DNA of 36,260 nucleotides from Gemmatimonadota bacterium (GTDB taxonomy: Bacteria; Gemmatimonadota; Gemmatimonadetes; Longimicrobiales; Gaopeijiaceae): the NCBI GenBank assembly GCA_007121455.1, contig SKKN01000031.1, positions 1 through 36,260 on the forward strand, in the 5' to 3' direction. The position numbers were made by a program, and so were the translations under genes. A model generated the notes under the pieces. The model was not told the origin of the DNA, did no database searches, and saw nothing but the letters and a program-made list of their open reading frames with translations. How positions within the stretch are numbered: position 1 is the stretch's first letter; each line of letters starts with the position of its first letter. Positions 17,139-25,992 of this stretch are shown here, piece by piece.

Positions 17139-19307
17139 CTACGACCCTGCCGGTCGAAGCCGCGCGAGTCGGAGCGCGTTCAGGGTCACGAGGAGTGAGA
17201 CGCCGAGGTCCCCGACCACGACGGCGGTGATCAGCGAGACCATTCCGAGCGGGACGCCCAGAGCGAGGACCGCCTTGACCAGAATCGCGGTGGCGATGTT
17301 CTGACGGATCACGGTACCCGCACGGCGGGAGAGGTGGCGAAGGTATCCGAGGCGCACCAGGTCGTCGCCCATGAGCGCGATGTCCGCGGTCTCCAGGGCC
17401 GTGTCACTCCCCGCGGCGCCCATCGCGATGCCGACCGTCGCGGCGGCGAGCGCTGGAGCATCGTTCACCCCGTCTCCCACCATCGCGACGGTGCCGTGGG
17501 CCCGCTCGAGCTCCTTCACCGCCTTCACCTTCTCCTCGGGGAGGAGGTTCGCCTGGAAGGAGTCCACTCCGATCTCTCTCCCGACCGCCTCCGCCGTCTC
17601 CGTCCGGTCCCCGGTGAGGAGCACGATCGGGCCCACGCCGAGCCTCCGAAGCTCCCGCACGGCCTCGGCGGCCCCGCCGCGGATGGGGTCGGCGAAGGCG
17701 ATCCATCCGAGGAGTTCCTGGTCGCGCGCCACCCCCACGTAGGTCCCCGTCCCGTTCAGGAGGCCGGGCGGAGGATCCCTTCCATCCGCCACTTCGAGGA
17801 ACTCGGGGCGGCCCACCGCATGCACCACGCCGTCCAGGAGAGCCTGCGCCCCCATCCCCGTGGAGGCGCCGAACCCGCTCACCGACCAGGGAGCGTCGAG
17901 GCCCCGCTCTCCCGCGGCCTCGACGATCGCACGGGCGAGCGGGTGCTCTGAGCGCCCCTCTACGGCCGCCGCCCGTGCAAGCAACTCTTCCTCGGACACT
18001 CCGTCGAGGGCCAGGACCTGCACGACCCGTGGATGCCCAACGGTCAGGGTTCCGGTCTTGTCGAGTGCCATCGCCTTCACCTCGCCCATCGCCTCCAGGT
18101 ACATCCCCCCCTTGATCAGGACGCCGTTTCGGGCGGCGGCGGTGATGCCGCTCACCACCGCCACCGGAGTCGAGATCACCAGGGCGCAGGGGCAGGCGAT
18201 CACGAGAAGGGTGAGTCCGCGGAGGAACCAGGTGAGAAACGGAGCTCCGAACAGGAGCGGGGGCACGAGCACGAGGAGAACCGCGGCCACGGTCACCGTC
18301 GGCGTGTAGTACCGAGCGAACCGCTCCACGAACCGCTCGCTTCGCGTCTTGCTGGCCTCCGCCTCCTCGACGAGCCGGATGATGCGCGAAAGAGCGCTGT
18401 CGGCGGCGGGCTTCACCACCCACATCCTGAGGAAGCCCTCCCGATTGATCGTGCCGGCGTACAGGTCGTCTCCCTTCCGCTTCACCACGGGCATCGACTC
18501 GCCCGTGATCGGAGACTGATCGACCGCCGTCGGCCCCTCCTCCACCACCCCGTCCGCGGGGACCCGCTCTCCGGGCCGAACCACCACCTCGTCGCCGGGA
18601 ACGAGATCCTCGACCGGAACCCGGACCTCCTCTCCACCCCGAAGGACCCGTGCCGCCTCCGGAGCGAGTTCTATGAGACGCTCCACGGAGGCCCGCGCTC
18701 GATCGACCGCGTAGTTCTCCAGCAGCTCGGCGAGGGCGAAGAGAAATGCGATCGCCGCGCCTTCCATGTACTCTCCGATGCCCACGGCGCCGAGGATCGC
18801 CGCGGTCATCAGGAAGTTCATGTCGAGCGAGAGGGTCCTCGCCGCACGCACCCCCTTCGGGAAGAAGTTCCATCCTCCCACGAGGGCGGCAGCGAGGAAG
18901 AACAGATCCGGAAGGCGCACCTCGTGGAGCGGAAGCTCGAAGACCGGCGGGCCGACGCCGGCGACGCGCAGGAGGATCGCGGCGGAGAAAAGGGCCATCG
19001 AACCGAACGCGATCCTGGCTTCTCGGCCGGTCCAACTCGTGGTGGGACCGCCGCCCCCTCTCTCGGTCCCGAGGGGGTGCGCGAGGTATCCCAGGCGCCC
19101 CACCTCGTCCTGAATCCTCCCGGAATCAGTCGCCGTTGGATCCGTCTCGACGGTCAGGATCCGAGCCACGGGGCTCCCCTGGACCTCTCCCACTCCCTCC
19201 AGCCTCTCGAGGCGGTGTTGAATTCTCTGGACACAGCTCGAGCAGTCCATCTCCGAGATGCGGAAGCGGAGGGTCGTCCGGCCCCCGTTTCGGCTACTCG
19301 CGGACAT
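17139..19307 (-). CDS. P1B-type heavy-metal ATPase (Zn/Cd/Pb exporter)
   Basis: Inner-membrane pump of 722 residues that exports divalent metal using ATP. It has an N-terminal metal-binding domain with MDCSSC (Cys22, Cys25). The membrane metal site is ACPCALVIS (CPC at 372-374), with TGE at 268-270, the phosphorylated DKTGT at 416-420, SEHP at 453-456 and GDGVND at 611-616. The last helix carries DLG (Asp700, Gly702), the D-x-G signature of the P1B-2 group that moves Zn, Cd and Pb rather than Cu. The ATG lies inside the end of the ArsR gene (14-nt overlap), so repressor and pump form one operon controlled from the promoter at 19654-19681. Confidence 0.96.
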   Translation of the reverse strand: MSASSRNGGRTTLRFRISEMDCSSCVQRIQHRLERLEGVGEVQGSPVARILTVETDPTATDSGRIQDEVGRLGYLAHPLGTERGGGGPTTSWTGREARIAFGSMALFSAAILLRVAGVGPPVFELPLHEVRLPDLFFLAAALVGGWNFFPKGVRAARTLSLDMNFLMTAAILGAVGIGEYMEGAAIAFLFALAELLENYAVDRARASVERLIELAPEAARVLRGGEEVRVPVEDLVPGDEVVVRPGERVPADGVVEEGPTAVDQSPITGESMPVVKRKGDDLYAGTINREGFLRMWVVKPAADSALSRIIRLVEEAEASKTRSERFVERFARYYTPTVTVAAVLLVLVPPLLFGAPFLTWFLRGLTLLVIACPCALVISTPVAVVSGITAAARNGVLIKGGMYLEAMGEVKAMALDKTGTLTVGHPRVVQVLALDGVSEEELLARAAAVEGRSEHPLARAIVEAAGERGLDAPWSVSGFGASTGMGAQALLDGVVHAVGRPEFLEVADGRDPPPGLLNGTGTYVGVARDQELLGWIAFADPIRGGAAEAVRELRRLGVGPIVLLTGDRTETAEAVGREIGVDSFQANLLPEEKVKAVKELERAHGTVAMVGDGVNDAPALAAATVGIAMGAAGSDTALETADIALMGDDLVRLGYLRHLSRRAGTVIRQNIATAILVKAVLALGVPLGMVSLITAVVVGDLGVSLLVTLNALRLARLRPAGS

Positions 19308-19647
19308 GATCCAACCCGGTGCGGAAGAGCGCGGCGATATGTTCGTCGTCGAGCCGATAGTACGCCATGCGGCCCGACCGCCGGAACTGGACGATGCGCA
19401 TCTGTCGAAGCTGACGGAGGTGATGGCTCACCGCCGACGCGCTGATGCCCACGACCGCGGCGAGGTCGCACACACAGAGCTCGCGACCCGCGAGCGCCTC
19501 CACGATCCGGAGCCGGCTCGGGCTCGCGAGCATCTGGAAGGTTTCGGCCAGGCGCGCCACGTCGACATCGTCGGCTTGCGCACCGAGCACCTCGGACACG
19601 GCCTCTTCGTTCACGAGCGGAACGTCACAGGAGTCGAGCTTCGTCAT
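19294..19647 (-). CDS. ArsR/SmtB-family metal-sensing repressor
   Basis: Winged-helix repressor of 117 residues expected to release DNA on binding Zn, Cd or Pb. ELCVCDLA gives Cys58 and Cys60, and Cys7 lies near the N-terminus. These match the CadC alpha-3N site, although the second N-terminal Cys (position 11) is missing. DEHIAALFRTGLDHVRE gives Asp101, His103, His114 and Glu117, the exact spacing of the SmtB alpha-5 zinc site. The recognition helix is SASAVSHHLRQL. I choose ATG 19647: a longer reading from 19674 would begin inside the operator and -10 box. The -10 box lies 6 nt before this ATG, so the mRNA is likely leaderless. The 3' end overlaps the ATPase gene. Confidence 0.95.
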   Translation of the reverse strand: MTKLDSCDVPLVNEEAVSEVLGAQADDVDVARLAETFQMLASPSRLRIVEALAGRELCVCDLAAVVGISASAVSHHLRQLRQMRIVQFRRSGRMAYYRLDDEHIAALFRTGLDHVRE

Positions 19648-19653
19648 GGGGAG

Positions 19654-19681
19654 AATATATGAATACATGCTCATACATCAA
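19654..19681 (-). promoter_or_regulatory. Promoter of the arsR-ATPase operon
   Basis: Minus-strand TTGATG (19676-19681) and TATATT (19654-19659) are 16 nt apart. Six nt separate the -10 box from the ATG at 19647, so transcription should begin at or next to the start codon. No ribosome-binding site is present, which fits a leaderless message. Confidence 0.6.
19655..19678. promoter_or_regulatory. ArsR/SmtB operator (imperfect 24-bp dyad)
   Basis: The dyad has outer AT/AT and core TATGA (19658-19662) / TCATA (19671-19675) arms, centred at 19666.5. It lies between and over the -35 and -10 boxes. Position and TGA-N-TCA style fit SmtB/CadC-family operators, so binding would block the promoter. It could also affect the divergent gene at 19748. 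Confidence 0.6.
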
Positions 19682-19747: not shown

Positions 19748-20119
19748 ATGCGAATGGAAAATCAGTACGGCACCTCCGTCTTCAGGCTCACCCTCGTGGT
19801 GGCCGCAGCGGTCTTCGCCTTCTCGGGCGTCGTCGCACCCGCGCTTCATATCGCGGGGAGCGGCGACGACGTGACGGAGATCGCCGGGTGGGCTTTTTCC
19901 GGGTCCACCCATGACGATTCTGGACATTCGCACTCGGAGCCGGACGACCATCTCGACTGCCTGACCTGCAAAGTCCTGAATCTCCCGGCCTCCGTCGGCG
20001 TCCTCCCCCACACCACCCAGCCCCCGCGACCGGGGTCCCTCGACCGACCGGTCGAAAGCCCCGGCGTGGAAGGGCCGATTCCCACCGACCATCGCCCCCG
20101 AGCTCCGCCGGCTTCCTGA
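19748..20119 (+). CDS. DUF2946-like metal-associated membrane protein
   Basis: A 123-residue protein with one N-terminal membrane/signal segment (about 11-32, LTLVVAAAVFAFSGVVAPAL). A His/Asp-rich patch follows (GHSHSEPDDH, His60, His62, His68), with Cys71 and Cys74 in DCLTC, and then a Pro-rich tail. A short membrane helix followed by His residues and a C-x2-C fits DUF2946-type proteins, which often lie beside metal-linked TonB receptors. No clear ribosome-binding site precedes ATG 19748 or 19754. It lies divergent from arsR and about 100 nt before the receptor gene. A metal-relay role is an inference. Confidence 0.65.
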   Translation: MRMENQYGTSVFRLTLVVAAAVFAFSGVVAPALHIAGSGDDVTEIAGWAFSGSTHDDSGHSHSEPDDHLDCLTCKVLNLPASVGVLPHTTQPPRPGSLDRPVESPGVEGPIPTDHRPRAPPAS

Positions 20120-20220
20120 CCCGCAGCTCACATCCATTGCGGAGCCGCTTCGTCGAAGTGCTCTTCCGCGAAATCCGGTAGCCGGGGCTCTCACCCCGGA
20201 TGTTCTGGAGAGGGTCGGGA

Positions 20221-22632
20221 ATGATGGTGCATGTCAGAAAGCATTCCGGGTACACACACAGGTCGGCCGCCTGGGCACGCTCCGCCGTGCTCCTGGCACT
20301 TCTGATCGCCCCCCTGACCCTCGGTCCAGCCTCCGCCGCATCTGCCGAGCTCGGGCCTCGCCCGGAGACAGGGGTGCTGCGGGTGCTGGTAGTGGATGAG
20401 GAGACCGGTCAGCCACTGTCCGGCACGACGGTCCGGATCCGGCAGGTCGACCGGACCGGCATTACGGACCGGGACGGTATCGTCGTCTTCGAGGGCCTCG
20501 CGGGGCGCTCCTACAACGTCACGGCGCAGCGGCTCGGCTACATCGACTCCGAGGAGCAGGTCGCCGTGGAGTCGGACGGGGTCGCCACCCTCGAGATCGC
20601 CCTCACCTCCACGCCCCTCGACATCGCGGGCATCGTCGTCACCGGCACCGGGAGGGAACGCCGGGCGGGGGACGTCTACCGTCCCACGACCTCGATGTCC
20701 GGTGCGGAGCTCCAGCGAAACCTGGAAAGCAGCGTACCGGCGACCCTGGAGAACGTCCCCGGGTTCGCGATGCAATACAACGGGCCGGGTGCGGCCAGCC
20801 CGTCGATCCGGGGAATGAGCGGAGACCGTGTCCTCATGCTCGAGGACGGCAACCGCACCGGGGACCTGTATCAGAGCGGATCGGACCACGGCGTCATGGT
20901 GGAGCCCCTTACGGCGCAGCGGATGGAGGTCGTCCGTGGACCGGCCACGCTCCTCTACGGCTCGAATGCGCTCGGCGGCGTCGTCAACGTGATCCGGGAC
21001 GACGTTCCCCGCTCGCTCCCCTCCCAAGTGCAGGGCACCGTCTCGTCCCAGTTCGAGTCCGTGAACGACGGGGCGGGAGGCAGCGTCGTGCTCCTCGCAC
21101 CCGCCGGACCCCTCGCGCTACGCGGGGAGGTCTCCGGCCGGAACATGGGCTCCACCCGAACACCGGCCGGCCCCCTAGACGGGACGGACATGGAGGCGTA
21201 CAACGCCAGCGCAGGGGCGAGCTTCGTGGCGGACTGGGGCTACGTGGGCGGCGCGTTCCGGTACTACGACAACCTCTACGGGGTGCCGGGCGAGTTCAAC
21301 GGAGAGCTCATCCCCGGCGGCCATCCGGGCGGCGTGGACATCGACACCCGGCGGACGAGCGGCCGTCTCCGCGCGGCGATCACCGAGCCCCTCCTCGGGT
21401 TCTTCGAGTCCGTGGAGATGCAGGCGAACGTGACCCGGTACGTCCACGACGAGATCGAGGGGACGGTCGGCGGGGAGCAGGTTCTGGGCGCCCGCTTCGA
21501 CCAGACCACCCGCGACGTGAGCCTTCTCGCACATCACGACCACACCCATCACGACCATGAGGGACCGGAGATCCGGCTCGAAGGTGCGCTTGGCCTATCC
21601 TACGAACACCGGGACCTGTGGGCGGGGGGGACGTCCCCGGGAACCCGGTCGGGAGAGGAAGGAACCCTCTCGGCCTTCGTCTTCGAGGAGTTCGGGTGGG
21701 AGCCGTTTCGTGTTCAGGCCGGCGTCCGCTACGACCACCGCCGTACGACGCCCGAGACGACCGATTCGATCGTCGTGCGGACACGGGAGCGCAGGATCAG
21801 CAAGCCCGTGGCGTCTCGGAGCTTCGGTTCGGTGTCGGCCTCGCTCGCAACGCTCTGGGAGGTCTCGCCGGAGTGGACGGTCGGTGGCAGCGTGGCCCGC
21901 TCCGTGCGAAACCCCGCGATCGAAGAACTTTTCTCCGACGGTCCGCACCTCGCGGATTTCTCCTTCGACATCGGAAGTCCCGACCTCGATCCCGAGGTGG
22001 GGCTCGGATTCGACCTCTTCCTCCGGGGCACCCGCCCGGACCTGAGCGTGGAGCTGGCCGCCTTCTACAACCGGGTCGATGGCTTCATCAACTACCTGCA
22101 GACGGGAGAGACCGTGCGGGTGATCCGGGAAGGAGTCGCTCCCCGCGTCACGCCCGTCTATGAGGCGAGGAGTGATGACGCAGACTTTATGGGGGCCGAG
22201 GGTCGTGTGCAGTGGGAAGTGCTTCCGCGAACGGTGCTCGACGCCACCGCCAGCTACACCCGTGCGTGGCGGCGGGCCGATTCCGACCCCCTCGCATTCA
22301 TCCCTCCCCTTTCCGGCCGTGTCGAGGTCCGGTACGAGGGCCGGACATTCACCGGCTCGCTCGGGATCAATGGGGCGGCCGCACAGGACCGCGTTCCCAC
22401 GCCGGTCCGGGTCGGCGACTCCACGGTGGATCCACAGGAGACCACCGCCGGATACGGACTCCTGAACGCGAGCGTGGGTTGGCGCCACGAGGGGGCGTTC
22501 CTGAACCACAGCCTCACCCTGCAGGCGAAGAACCTCACCGACCGTGAGGCGCACGACCACCTCTCCCGGATCAAGGACATCGCGCCGAAGCCGGGACGAA
22601 ACCTGCAGCTCACCTATCGAGTGCACTTCTGA
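20221..22632 (+). CDS. ZnuD-like TonB-dependent receptor
   Basis: Outer-membrane active importer, about 803 residues. A signal peptide (to about 42, ending ASAASA) is followed by a carboxypeptidase-like beta domain (52-130). The plug contains RGMSGDRVLMLEDG, SDHGVMVEPLTAQRMEVVRGPATLLYG and NALGGVVNV. A 22-strand barrel ends in NLTDREAHDHLSRIKDIAPKPGRN and terminal Phe. The plug and the KDIAPKPGR ending resemble the zinc receptor ZnuD. A predicted extracellular loop carries HHDHTHHDH (438-446), like ZnuD's His-rich loop. ATG 20221 is chosen because GGAGAGG (20207-20213) lies 7 nt upstream; the longer reading from 20200 would overlap it. Zinc is the likeliest substrate; copper or a chelate is possible. 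Confidence 0.9.
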   Translation: MMVHVRKHSGYTHRSAAWARSAVLLALLIAPLTLGPASAASAELGPRPETGVLRVLVVDEETGQPLSGTTVRIRQVDRTGITDRDGIVVFEGLAGRSYNVTAQRLGYIDSEEQVAVESDGVATLEIALTSTPLDIAGIVVTGTGRERRAGDVYRPTTSMSGAELQRNLESSVPATLENVPGFAMQYNGPGAASPSIRGMSGDRVLMLEDGNRTGDLYQSGSDHGVMVEPLTAQRMEVVRGPATLLYGSNALGGVVNVIRDDVPRSLPSQVQGTVSSQFESVNDGAGGSVVLLAPAGPLALRGEVSGRNMGSTRTPAGPLDGTDMEAYNASAGASFVADWGYVGGAFRYYDNLYGVPGEFNGELIPGGHPGGVDIDTRRTSGRLRAAITEPLLGFFESVEMQANVTRYVHDEIEGTVGGEQVLGARFDQTTRDVSLLAHHDHTHHDHEGPEIRLEGALGLSYEHRDLWAGGTSPGTRSGEEGTLSAFVFEEFGWEPFRVQAGVRYDHRRTTPETTDSIVVRTRERRISKPVASRSFGSVSASLATLWEVSPEWTVGGSVARSVRNPAIEELFSDGPHLADFSFDIGSPDLDPEVGLGFDLFLRGTRPDLSVELAAFYNRVDGFINYLQTGETVRVIREGVAPRVTPVYEARSDDADFMGAEGRVQWEVLPRTVLDATASYTRAWRRADSDPLAFIPPLSGRVEVRYEGRTFTGSLGINGAAAQDRVPTPVRVGDSTVDPQETTAGYGLLNASVGWRHEGAFLNHSLTLQAKNLTDREAHDHLSRIKDIAPKPGRNLQLTYRVHF

Positions 22633-22703: not shown

Positions 22704-23894
22704 ATGCATCATGACCGCAGGCATGCTCGAAGCGCGTTCAGAACAGCGAGCGCATTCGCCCTCACGGGCCTTTTCGCCCTGACGGCATGTGACAGCGACC
22801 CCGTCGGGGTCAACGGCGACGATCCTCCCGACAACGGCCACGAGGATGCGGGGAGAGTCGAGATCCAGACCCGCGGCGCCGCCTCGGCCACGATCGCCGT
22901 GTGGTCCGACGGAGACGGTTGGACGGATGGGGAGGGCAACGCAATCACGGAGATCGAAGCGCCCGTCGACGTCGAGGGGGAGGGACTCCAGCCTCTCCGG
23001 GCCGGAGGCCAGAACGCGTCGCTCAGCGTCGTGTTCTTCAATCCCGACGGGTCCGAGGTGGAGATGAGCACCTTGAGCCGGGACGATGTGACCAGGGAGA
23101 GAGAGTGCACAGAGTATGAAGCGCGATACTATCCCACCACGGATGACGTGACCGCGATCGCGTGGCCGAACGTCCGCCATCCGGAGAGCACGAACGGCCC
23201 CTTCCACTTCGCGCACCAGCACGACGGGAATCTGGTCGGGATCTTTCACTGCGACCACATCCACTTCTATCCCGAAGCGCCGGGAGAGGTGGAGCTCGAG
23301 TTCCACCTCTGGCACATCGACCACAGCGACGACCACACGGACCCGATCACGATCCGGGTGCACGAGGCCGATGAGGCCGCGCGGATCGAGCTGCAGACCC
23401 GGGGCGAGGCCGGCGCGACACTCGGAGTATGGACGGAAGGTGAAGGCTGGGCCGACGCCGATGGAAATCCGATCACGCGGATCGAGGCCCCCCGGGACGT
23501 GGAGGGCGAAGGGCTGCAGCCGCTGGAAGCAGGAGGCTCGAACGCCTCCCTCACGGTCGAGTACTTCGCCCACGGAGGCAGGGAGGCCGACCAGGGAACC
23601 ATCAGTCGGGACGACGACACACGAGAGCGCGTGTGCACTCATGTCTCGGCCCGCTATACGGTAGAGGCGAACGAAGGCGTGCTCGCATGGCCGAACATGG
23701 CCCATCCGGACAACCCCGAGGGAGATGCGCAGTTCGTCGAGCGGGAGGACGGCACGGTCGTCGGCATCTTCCACTGTGACCACATCCACCTCTACCCGGA
23801 GTCGGCGGGCGAGGTGGATGTGCGCTTCCTGATCCACGGAGGCGAGCAGCCGATCAACCAGGCCGACCCGATCACCTTCGTCGTGAACGAGTAG
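22704..23894 (+). CDS. Duplicated His/Cys-motif lipoprotein, candidate zinc binder
   Basis: A 396-residue protein with a lipoprotein signal (lipobox LTAC, Cys29) and two tandem copies of one domain (about 50-222 and 226-396). Each copy runs IELQTRG/IEIQTRG, GEGLQPL, NASL, R-E-x-C, AWPN-x-x-HP and ends with GIFHCDHIH followed by YPE. The first copy adds HFAHQH and WHIDHSDDH, so it has more potential ligands than the second. I do not recognise a named family. The clustered His, Cys and Asp and the position right after a ZnuD-like receptor suggest a surface or periplasmic metal-binding protein. GGAGG-like purines precede the ATG at 22704. The gene is followed by a strong terminator. Confidence 0.8.
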   Translation: MHHDRRHARSAFRTASAFALTGLFALTACDSDPVGVNGDDPPDNGHEDAGRVEIQTRGAASATIAVWSDGDGWTDGEGNAITEIEAPVDVEGEGLQPLRAGGQNASLSVVFFNPDGSEVEMSTLSRDDVTRERECTEYEARYYPTTDDVTAIAWPNVRHPESTNGPFHFAHQHDGNLVGIFHCDHIHFYPEAPGEVELEFHLWHIDHSDDHTDPITIRVHEADEAARIELQTRGEAGATLGVWTEGEGWADADGNPITRIEAPRDVEGEGLQPLEAGGSNASLTVEYFAHGGREADQGTISRDDDTRERVCTHVSARYTVEANEGVLAWPNMAHPDNPEGDAQFVEREDGTVVGIFHCDHIHLYPESAGEVDVRFLIHGGEQPINQADPITFVVNE

Positions 23895-24066: not shown

Positions 24067-24405
24067 ATGTCCACGCAACTGGCATCCCGCTCGTGCGAGC
24101 CCTGCACCGGATCCACGCCACCCGTCACCGGTGAGGAGTTGGAGCGACTCTCCGCCGAGCTCTCCTCCCGTTGGCACGTCGAGGACGAGCATCACCTGAT
24201 CGCCGACTTCGAGTTCGACGACTTCGTCGGCGCGCTCGATTTCACGAACCGCGTCGGAGCCGTGGCGGAGGAGGAGGGCCATCATCCGGAGATCCGTCTC
24301 ACCTGGGGCAGGGCTTCCGTCAAGATCTGGACCCACGCGATCGATGCGCTGAGCGAGAGCGACTTCATCCTCGCCGCCAAGATCGACGAGATCGCCTCCA
24401 CCTGA
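24067..24405 (+). CDS. phhB: Pterin-4a-carbinolamine dehydratase
   Basis: Dehydrates 4a-hydroxytetrahydrobiopterin, recycling the cofactor after phenylalanine hydroxylase turnover. The 112 residues match the family length. The active site is EEEGHHPE with His72 and His73, plus His90 in KIWTHAIDALSESDF. GGAG lies 6 nt before the ATG. The gene is alone: the phenylalanine hydroxylase it usually serves is not in this window. The first 20 residues are a non-conserved tail with Cys10 and Cys13. In bacteria lacking the hydroxylase, family members can act in molybdopterin or other pterin metabolism, so the exact role is open. Confidence 0.92.
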   Translation: MSTQLASRSCEPCTGSTPPVTGEELERLSAELSSRWHVEDEHHLIADFEFDDFVGALDFTNRVGAVAEEEGHHPEIRLTWGRASVKIWTHAIDALSESDFILAAKIDEIAST

Positions 24406-24432: not shown

Positions 24433-25992
24433 TCAGCTCGACAGCCAGAGGGCGAGCGCTCCGCCCGCCCCGGTATAGAGGAGGGCGACCCAGAGGGTAC
24501 GACGCAGGATTTCCCCTTCGCGGCCCTGGAGCCCCACCGTCGCCCCGGCCGCCACCACGTTATGGGGGCACACCATGTTTCCCACGGCCGCCCCGAAGCC
24601 CTGCGTCCCGACGGTGTCCATCACCGGGAGCCCCACGGTCCGGGCCGTGCTCTGCTGGAAATCCGTGAAGAGGATGTTCGAGGCCGTCGCCGAGCCGGTG
24701 ACGAAGGTGCCGAGCATGCCGACGAAGGGCGCGAATACCGGCCACCGGCTTCCGGCGCCCTCGGCGGCAGTCGCTGCGAGCACCTCGGTCATCCCGGCGT
24801 GGACCATCACCCGGGAGAGGGCCAGCATCGCCACGAGCGCGACGGCCACGGGAACGAGGGTCCGGGTCGCCTCCACCACCGCACCCGTGATGACCGTCCT
24901 CGAGGTGCGCTGCAACCACGCGCCCACCACGAAACCGAGGAGAAGCATCGTCCCCGGGTGATACAGGGGCTGAATCGAGCCCGCGAACGTCCCCTCCCAT
25001 TCCCAGGCCCATGTCGGCGTCTGGAGGAGGTCGCGGAGCGGAGGCACCAGTCGGCTCAGGAGGACGAGAGCCACCAGCACGAGGTAGGGCGCGGATGCCC
25101 GGAGCACGGCCTTGCCGGAGGGGCCGTCGTCCACCGGAGCTGCATCGCGGCCGCCCGCGTCCGACCCTTCCCGGAGTCCACCGACGACCCGAAGGAGAAG
25201 GAGGAAGAGCATTCCGCCGAAAAGAGCCCCCGCCATCGTCGGGAGCTCCGGCCCCACCCAAGCCCAGAGGATCGTGTACGGCACGAGAAAACAGACATAT
25301 GCCGCGGCGGTCCACGCCCAGATTCCGCCCGTGGAGCCCGAGCCCTTCTCCGGCACCGCCCGGCCCACCATCCCCACCATCACGACGAGAGGAATCCACC
25401 CGAGGAGCGAGTGGTAGAGACCGGTGGCTCGAGCGATCTCGAGGCCGCTGAGCCCGGTCACCGCCACCTGGGGGATCACGGGGGTACCCACCGCGCCGAA
25501 AGATACACCCACGACGTGCCCCACGAGCGTGATCGTGACCGCCTCCACCGGCCGAAAGCCCGCCGCCACCAGGAAGGGGGCCGCGAGTGCGACCGAAGCC
25601 CCGAAGCCGGCCGCCCCCTCCATGAACAGGACGAAGAACCAGGCAACGAGGAGCGCAAGGATGCGCGGGTCCGGGGCGAAGCGTCCGAGCGCCTCCCGGA
25701 GGACTTCCGCACCACCGGTCCTGAGCTGGAGCTGGTGGATCCCGAGGGCCGGGCCGATGATCCAGAGTATGGTGAGGGCGGTGAAGCCCGATTCCGCAGA
25801 GACGCCTCCGAGGGCCGGCCCGAGGTCGACCTCGGGCCCAAGGGGGCGGGGAAAGTCGAACACGAACACCGCGACGGCGAGCGAGACCCCCACTCCAGTC
25901 ACCCCCGCCCGGGCCGCCGACCAGCGCCTGCCGAGCATGAGGGCGAGGATGACCAGGATGGGCAGACCCGCCAGAAAAGCGCTCACGGGCAC
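24433..25992 (-). CDS. lctP: Lactate permease, LctP family
   Basis: Inner-membrane symporter of 519 residues with about 13 hydrophobic segments. It carries family blocks such as EGAAGFGASVALAAPFLVAAGF, GAVGTPV and, near the end, TGSATASNILF with QGFGAAVGNMVCPHNVVAAGATVGL. LctP/LldP proteins import lactate (D or L) and glycolate with protons. The GTG start lies 13 nt after the stop of the 2-hydroxyacid dehydrogenase gene, so both belong to one transcript. That partner suggests D-lactate as a substrate. A GTG two codons further (25986) is an equally possible start. Convergent with phhB. Confidence 0.93.
   Translation of the reverse strand: MPVSAFLAGLPILVILALMLGRRWSAARAGVTGVGVSLAVAVFVFDFPRPLGPEVDLGPALGGVSAESGFTALTILWIIGPALGIHQLQLRTGGAEVLREALGRFAPDPRILALLVAWFFVLFMEGAAGFGASVALAAPFLVAAGFRPVEAVTITLVGHVVGVSFGAVGTPVIPQVAVTGLSGLEIARATGLYHSLLGWIPLVVMVGMVGRAVPEKGSGSTGGIWAWTAAAYVCFLVPYTILWAWVGPELPTMAGALFGGMLFLLLLRVVGGLREGSDAGGRDAAPVDDGPSGKAVLRASAPYLVLVALVLLSRLVPPLRDLLQTPTWAWEWEGTFAGSIQPLYHPGTMLLLGFVVGAWLQRTSRTVITGAVVEATRTLVPVAVALVAMLALSRVMVHAGMTEVLAATAAEGAGSRWPVFAPFVGMLGTFVTGSATASNILFTDFQQSTARTVGLPVMDTVGTQGFGAAVGNMVCPHNVVAAGATVGLQGREGEILRRTLWVALLYTGAGGALALWLSS

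Follow-up and report, generated by a model that had tools for sequence, protein, structure and literature searches.

A domain-duplicated lipoprotein encoded next to a ZnuD-like TonB-dependent receptor in a Gemmatimonadota genome: a candidate accessory protein for zinc

Through in silico analysis of a 36,260-nucleotide stretch of DNA from a Gemmatimonadota bacterium (contig SKKN01000031.1 of assembly GCA_007121455.1; hereafter the window), a gene for a 396-residue lipoprotein (22704..23894, forward strand) and its genetic surroundings have been characterized. The protein carries a signal peptide, a lipobox LTAC (Cys29), an acidic linker and two tandem domains with a predicted immunoglobulin (Ig)-like fold. 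Sequence and profile comparisons place it in an unnamed wide family of Ig-like lipoproteins, distributed over Gemmatimonadota, Bacteroidota and Myxococcota, as a divergent member with a duplicated domain. Directly in front of it lies the gene of a TonB-dependent receptor resembling the zinc receptor ZnuD, and the lipoprotein is probably an outer-membrane accessory protein of this ZnuD-type receptor, handing zinc to the receptor or taking zinc from it. We infer the binding of a metal, the identity of that metal, the direction of transfer, the side of the membrane and the role of the second domain copy.

The receptor gene (20200..22632, forward strand; probable true start ATG at about 20221) encodes a protein with a plug and a barrel above the Pfam cut-offs (PF07715, 9.5e-20; PF00593, 5.9e-40). 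Its best solved relative is ZnuD (4rdr, expectation value (E) 3.4e-36), and within NCBIfam ZnuD is matched at 1.3e-45 against 6.7e-19 for copper receptors. As the score with the ZnuD model NF038289 is 156.2 bits and does not reach the cut-off of 950, the protein is called ZnuD-like here and not ZnuD. The zinc ligands of ZnuD are Asp99, His100, Glu340 and His499 (PMC4557270), and all four align with residues of the same kind in the window receptor (D229, H230, E418 and H583). These four are kept in 12 aligned receptors of the family, as far as the sequences are complete, and the Asp, His and Glu of the site are kept in 20 of 20 Bacteroidota receptors as well. The Asp-His pair is missing from the other types of receptor in this genome, except for a second ZnuD-like receptor on another contig. 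With ZnuD of Neisseria and others the window receptor also shares an extra His-rich loop; it differs from ZnuD in the low NF038289 score and in an N-terminal carboxypeptidase-regulatory-like domain. The protein is most likely a receptor of the ZnuD type and as such would transport zinc. The preliminary description of the lipoprotein gene had considered a metal-binding role from the lipoprotein alone, and this role becomes probable through the ZnuD-like neighbour with its four zinc ligands and through a His/His/Asp triad invariant across the wide lipoprotein family. Two side observations concern these receptors: the His loop HHDHTHHDH (residues 445-453; 21532-21558) is reminiscent of the loop clusters with which ZnuD collects zinc, is partly conserved in close relatives and is reduced in distant ones; the second ZnuD-like receptor of the genome (L039, 4098-6380 on G000:C26) is divergent from a FecA-like receptor and has no family lipoprotein beside it.

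The pairing of receptor and lipoprotein genes recurs in other genomes. In Gemmatimonadota the receptor gene comes first and the lipoprotein gene follows; all 20 fetched members from Bacteroidota also adjoin a ZnuD-like receptor, with the lipoprotein first and thus in the opposite order. The two genes occur together in Salinibacteraceae and Myxococcales, too. At one further Gemmatimonadota locus (L029, 3419-4708) an AztD-like lipoprotein (E 5e-30) is encoded immediately before a ZnuD-like receptor and a distant member of the family, and because AztD represents a family of zinc metallochaperones, this locus gives a pointer to zinc that does not rely on ZnuD. The same genome encodes a ZnuA-family binding protein. 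The word lipoprotein does not appear in the paper on the ZnuD structure (PMC4557270), and the literature searched yielded no partner lipoprotein for ZnuD-type receptors.

That the lipoprotein belongs to no named family, as had been noted from the DNA letters alone, agrees with the searches: nothing reached a cut-off in Pfam, NCBIfam or the PDB sequences, and the profile search that had been proposed, against protein and structure databases, gave no confident match to a characterized family. In Pfam only Filamin appeared, below threshold (E 0.0026, 19 bits; cut-off 26.9), NCBIfam returned no relevant match and the PDB sequences none at all; one relative matched Big_2 at 16.9 bits, under the Pfam cut-off of 22.8. 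Close relatives with long domains (the long form) have been identified in Gemmatimonadota and, going by the names of the records, in metagenome-assembled Gemmatimonadetes, Salinibacteraceae, Rhodothermaceae and Myxococcales, with one, two or three domains per protein; many of their records are labelled CSSed, which we take to mean soda-lake sediment. Deeper searching led to shorter relatives and then to the wide family, with the core ...GGHLHGEAxGET...F.LMHG..HADF. The profile of the long-form domain matches that of the wide family at 97.6% probability (hhalign, E 2.6e-12), a comparison that is not fully independent, since a few rows of the wide-family alignment A5 were originally recruited with the window protein. 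When profile A5 is run on the genome of the window, domain 1 is the sole match (E 1.3e-7); neither domain 2 nor any other member is found. A member of the wide family is present in 69 of 296 sampled genomes of the phylum to which the Salinibacteraceae genome belongs, which we take to be Bacteroidota; in Gemmatimonadota, the phylum of the window itself, 34 of 394 genomes match a narrower profile. A multi-copy distant relative has been noticed in Myxococcales (L118, G409:C623), namely a 542-residue lipoprotein with four repeats that contain GDHWHG.

Four residues are invariant in the wide family, one Gly, two His and one Asp, the latter three arranged as H-x(2-8)-H-x-D and preceded by a G-x-T/V strand. 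In the window protein the invariant His and Asp residues correspond to H204, H207 and D209 of the segment WHIDHSD (W203 to D209; 23310..23330, forward strand) in domain 1, and they are absent from domain 2. This triad is the best candidate for a metal site. In the preliminary description the ligands had instead been sought in HCDH together with an upstream Cys, a site that now appears less likely than WHIDHSD.

Domain 1 (residues ~51-222; 22854..23369, forward strand) retains the H-x2-H-x-D site of the wide family, as judged from the comparison of the repeats, the AlphaFold2 model and profile A5. Domain 2 (residues ~226-396; 23379..23891, forward strand) appears to be the derived copy, in which HCDHIH (residues 357-362) and both Cys are kept and WHxDHxD is lost. 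The two copies are 53% identical across 171 residues (194 bits, E 4e-69), a likeness far beyond chance; the open reading frame, the lipobox Cys29 and these tandem copies bear out the initial description of an unrecognised lipoprotein with a duplicated domain of about 170 residues. Every motif that had been listed as common to the copies (TRG, GEGLQPL, NASL, R-E-x-C, WPN-x-x-HP and GIFHCDHIH-x-YPE) is indeed found in each. The segments HFAHQH (residues 168-173) and WHIDHSDDH (residues 203-211) occur in copy 1 only, as described. The emphasis on these extra His residues holds for WHIDHSD, which is conserved, but not for HFAHQH, which reads FQFAR or similar in close relatives and was rejected as a conserved site.

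The history of the copies has been followed in a tree of 33 domains and in a residue table. All second and third domains from Gemmatimonadota fall into one clade (98/91), which indicates a single duplication, with third copies derived from second copies. WHxDHxD is kept in 9/9 first domains and in 4/4 single-domain long-form relatives, and in 0/11 second or third domains; the suspicion that the copies differ is thereby borne out, as regards their content of metal ligands. A Rhodothermaceae protein (L079, 2-1300), whose start is cut off by the contig end, has at least three long-form domains with WHxDHxD in none of them. Multiplication of domains has not always been accompanied by loss of the site, since all three short domains of L027, another distant relative, keep H-x-x-H-x-D. 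The two Cys residues show another pattern, being present in 28/28 long-form and 0/5 distant domains tabulated. In domain 1 of the window protein, Cys183 of HCDHIH (residues 182-187; 23247..23264, forward strand) co-occurs with the Cys of R-E-x-C-T. Because both Cys appear and vanish together and are missing from distant members, a disulfide is more probable than a metal site built on Cys: the pairing of the cysteines that had been envisaged gains weight, and their use as metal ligands was rejected as the likeliest explanation. Our reading is that the long form gained a disulfide and that the second copy gave up the metal-type site.

AlphaFold2 predicts domain 1 (residues 51-222, 26 sequences) as an all-beta structure (predicted local distance difference test (pLDDT) 92.7, predicted template modelling score 0.86), and the whole mature lipoprotein is modelled at a pLDDT of 90.1. 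In VIA-align, where a Z below 8 denotes a common arrangement only, the best Z is 7.2 and Ig-like domains lead, with Z 6.7 for the surface-layer protein SbsC (4uid) and about 5 for filamins; Foldseek found no match to the domain model under E 0.001 in the PDB. The Pfam cut-offs of the Filamin and BIG families were reached neither by the lipoprotein domain nor by its relative. The model fits an Ig-like sandwich with insertions, a common fold that points to no particular family or function. Filamin, BIG2-type Ig domains and SbsC likely share this general fold with the window domain, which differs from them by a large insertion, the two Cys and the His/Asp motifs. Strands 144-154 and 157-161 of the domain 1 model are separated by a turn of two residues, with H204 on one side of the turn and H207 on the other; D209 shares both strand and face with H207. 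A placement of all three ligands on one face of a beta-hairpin is therefore plausible in the model.

From these features the following sequence of events may be proposed. Domain 1 would bind zinc via H204, H207 and D209 on its hairpin, perhaps with the help of HCDHIH. An outward-facing lipoprotein would pass the ion to the receptor, and one facing the periplasm would take it over at the exit of the receptor. Domain 2 may serve as a spacer, a docking domain or a weaker site, because the site is lost while the fold, the putative disulfide and HCDHIH are kept. The last point also feeds another explanation, in which the receptor depends on the lipoprotein for its folding, gating or docking, the His and Asp residues of the lipoprotein are structural and no transported metal is carried. 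The retention of a second domain without the His/Asp site in all two- and three-domain relatives speaks for a site-independent role of at least part of the protein, and Ig-like domains are often merely binding modules. As an account of the whole lipoprotein this explanation is nevertheless rather improbable, since the His/His/Asp triad is invariant across phyla despite great divergence, as would be expected for a ligand site rather than for an unspecific docking surface, and the linkers too are rich in His and Asp.

The first gene of the operon (19748..20119, forward strand) encodes an exported leader peptide of 123 residues resembling CruR/DUF2946 proteins, with a hydrophobic N-terminus and a C-terminal part organized as CLTC, 43 residues, RAPPAS and stop. 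Its match to PF11162 (E 4e-4, 21.6 bits) is just under the cut-off of 23.7, so it is termed only CruR-like. Copper-responsive control of a TonB receptor gene by the DUF2946 protein CruR is known from Bordetella, where it operates via a CxxC and a RAPP motif about 45 residues apart (PMC9426467). The window leader has in common with the CruR of Bordetella bfrG the CxxC, the C-terminal RAPP, their spacing, an export signal and the position as first gene before a TonB receptor; it differs in heading a ZnuD-type receptor or, in some genomes, the lipoprotein alone. The same leader has been found at most long-form loci with upstream sequence and at several distant loci, with RGPP in place of RAPP at three of them (L024, L025 and L027); it was not found at the Myxococcales locus L081. 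RAPP and RGPP are known arrest motifs (PMC10987492), although CruR itself was not known to cause arrest. Between leader and receptor genes, the tendency to RNA structure corresponds to a z of -1.9 in the window, and to -0.9 and -4.3 in two relatives. The nascent chain of the leader may sense a metal through CxxC and in this way set the expression of receptor and lipoprotein.

Some observations weigh against a zinc partnership of receptor and lipoprotein. In genus g17 the lipoprotein gene is solitary, with the receptor (59-60% identity) encoded elsewhere in the genome, and the three-repeat relative L027 has no adjoining receptor; the partnership is therefore not absolute, although the leader, which in g17 and L027 heads the lipoprotein gene alone, remains linked to the lipoprotein even without the receptor. 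No Zur-like box or palindrome common to the promoters upstream of the leaders was found. Finally, the known CruR leader senses copper and not zinc (PMC9426467), which makes copper the main rival: the operon would then import copper by means of a copper-sensing leader, a copper receptor and a copper-binding lipoprotein. Known CruR relatives head operons of OprC-type copper receptors, whose copper site is formed by Cys and Met. In the NCBIfam comparison given above, the receptor of the window matches ZnuD much better than copper receptors; it keeps the four zinc ligands and contains no cysteine at all, which speaks against such a site, and the motif of the lipoprotein consists of His and Asp with no conserved Met. 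Copper specificity of the leader is not assured either, as the authors of the CutF study think that CutF/CruR-like leaders are not all specific for copper (PMC9973294), and DUF2946 genes are also found within a zinc regulon (PMC4176598). Copper import is thus regarded as unlikely, and zinc transfer by the lipoprotein is preferred.

Pairs of a lipoprotein and a TonB-dependent receptor for scarce nutrients are represented by TbpA-TbpB, HpuA-HpuB, SusC-SusD and BtuB-BtuG. The window genes are likened to them as a gene pairing; as to surface exposure, the window offers the lipobox and the acidic linker. Two differences set the window lipoprotein apart: its building block is a small Ig-like domain bearing a His/Asp site, and the receptor that it accompanies is of the zinc type; no sequence relation to lipoproteins of the TbpB, HpuA, SusD or BtuG type was found. 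A possible functional parallel is AztD, a periplasmic or surface zinc metallochaperone and hence an accessory zinc carrier outside the cytoplasm, which is unrelated in sequence and, being a beta-propeller, has another fold. As a more tentative generalization, the wide family might consist of zinc hand-over lipoproteins paired with ZnuD-type receptors, and in Gemmatimonadota and Salinibacteraceae a nascent-chain sensor of the CruR type might have been retuned from copper to zinc. Such a family would be the zinc counterpart of TbpA-TbpB and SusC-SusD, at a step, the passage of zinc across the outer membrane, which is poorly known outside Proteobacteria. If this is true, an unannotated domain present in about a quarter of the sampled Bacteroidota genomes gains a testable role, CruR-type leaders, so far connected with copper, govern receptors of the zinc type in further phyla, and the metal specificity of nascent-chain sensors becomes directly testable.

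On the other side of the leader, two genes are oriented divergently. The first encodes an ArsR/SmtB-type repressor (19294..19674, reverse strand; likely start 19647; NF033788, E 5.8e-29) that contains both known SmtB metal-site patterns, ELCVCDL and the alpha5 pattern D-x-H-x10-H-x2-E. The second encodes a P1B ATPase of the zinc/cadmium/lead type (17139..19307, reverse strand) with CPC, ...AILVK and GDLG, above the cut-offs of TIGR01525 and TIGR01512 and strongly matching the PRK11033/ZntA models below their cut-offs. An operator-like palindrome, TATGA-N8-TCATA (19658..19675), overlies a promoter-like site (19681-19654, reverse strand) of the ArsR gene; it has one exact match in the window, where 0.10 are expected at up to one mismatch, and is probably the operator of the ArsR gene itself. 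The zinc-type repressor and pump genes adjoining the operon, with the operator-like palindrome between, would suit a lipoprotein that buffers or senses zinc at the outer membrane against excess, in one protective programme with the SmtB-like repressor and the ZntA-like pump. This function is very improbable, given that the repressor-pump pair was found beside no other family locus, whereas the uptake-type receptor is; for the same reason the divergent genes receive little weight.

Downstream of the lipoprotein gene lie a pterin-4a-carbinolamine dehydratase gene (24067-24405, forward strand) and a lactate permease-like gene (24433-25992, reverse strand), both apparently unrelated; the dehydratase gene did not turn up elsewhere among the family loci.
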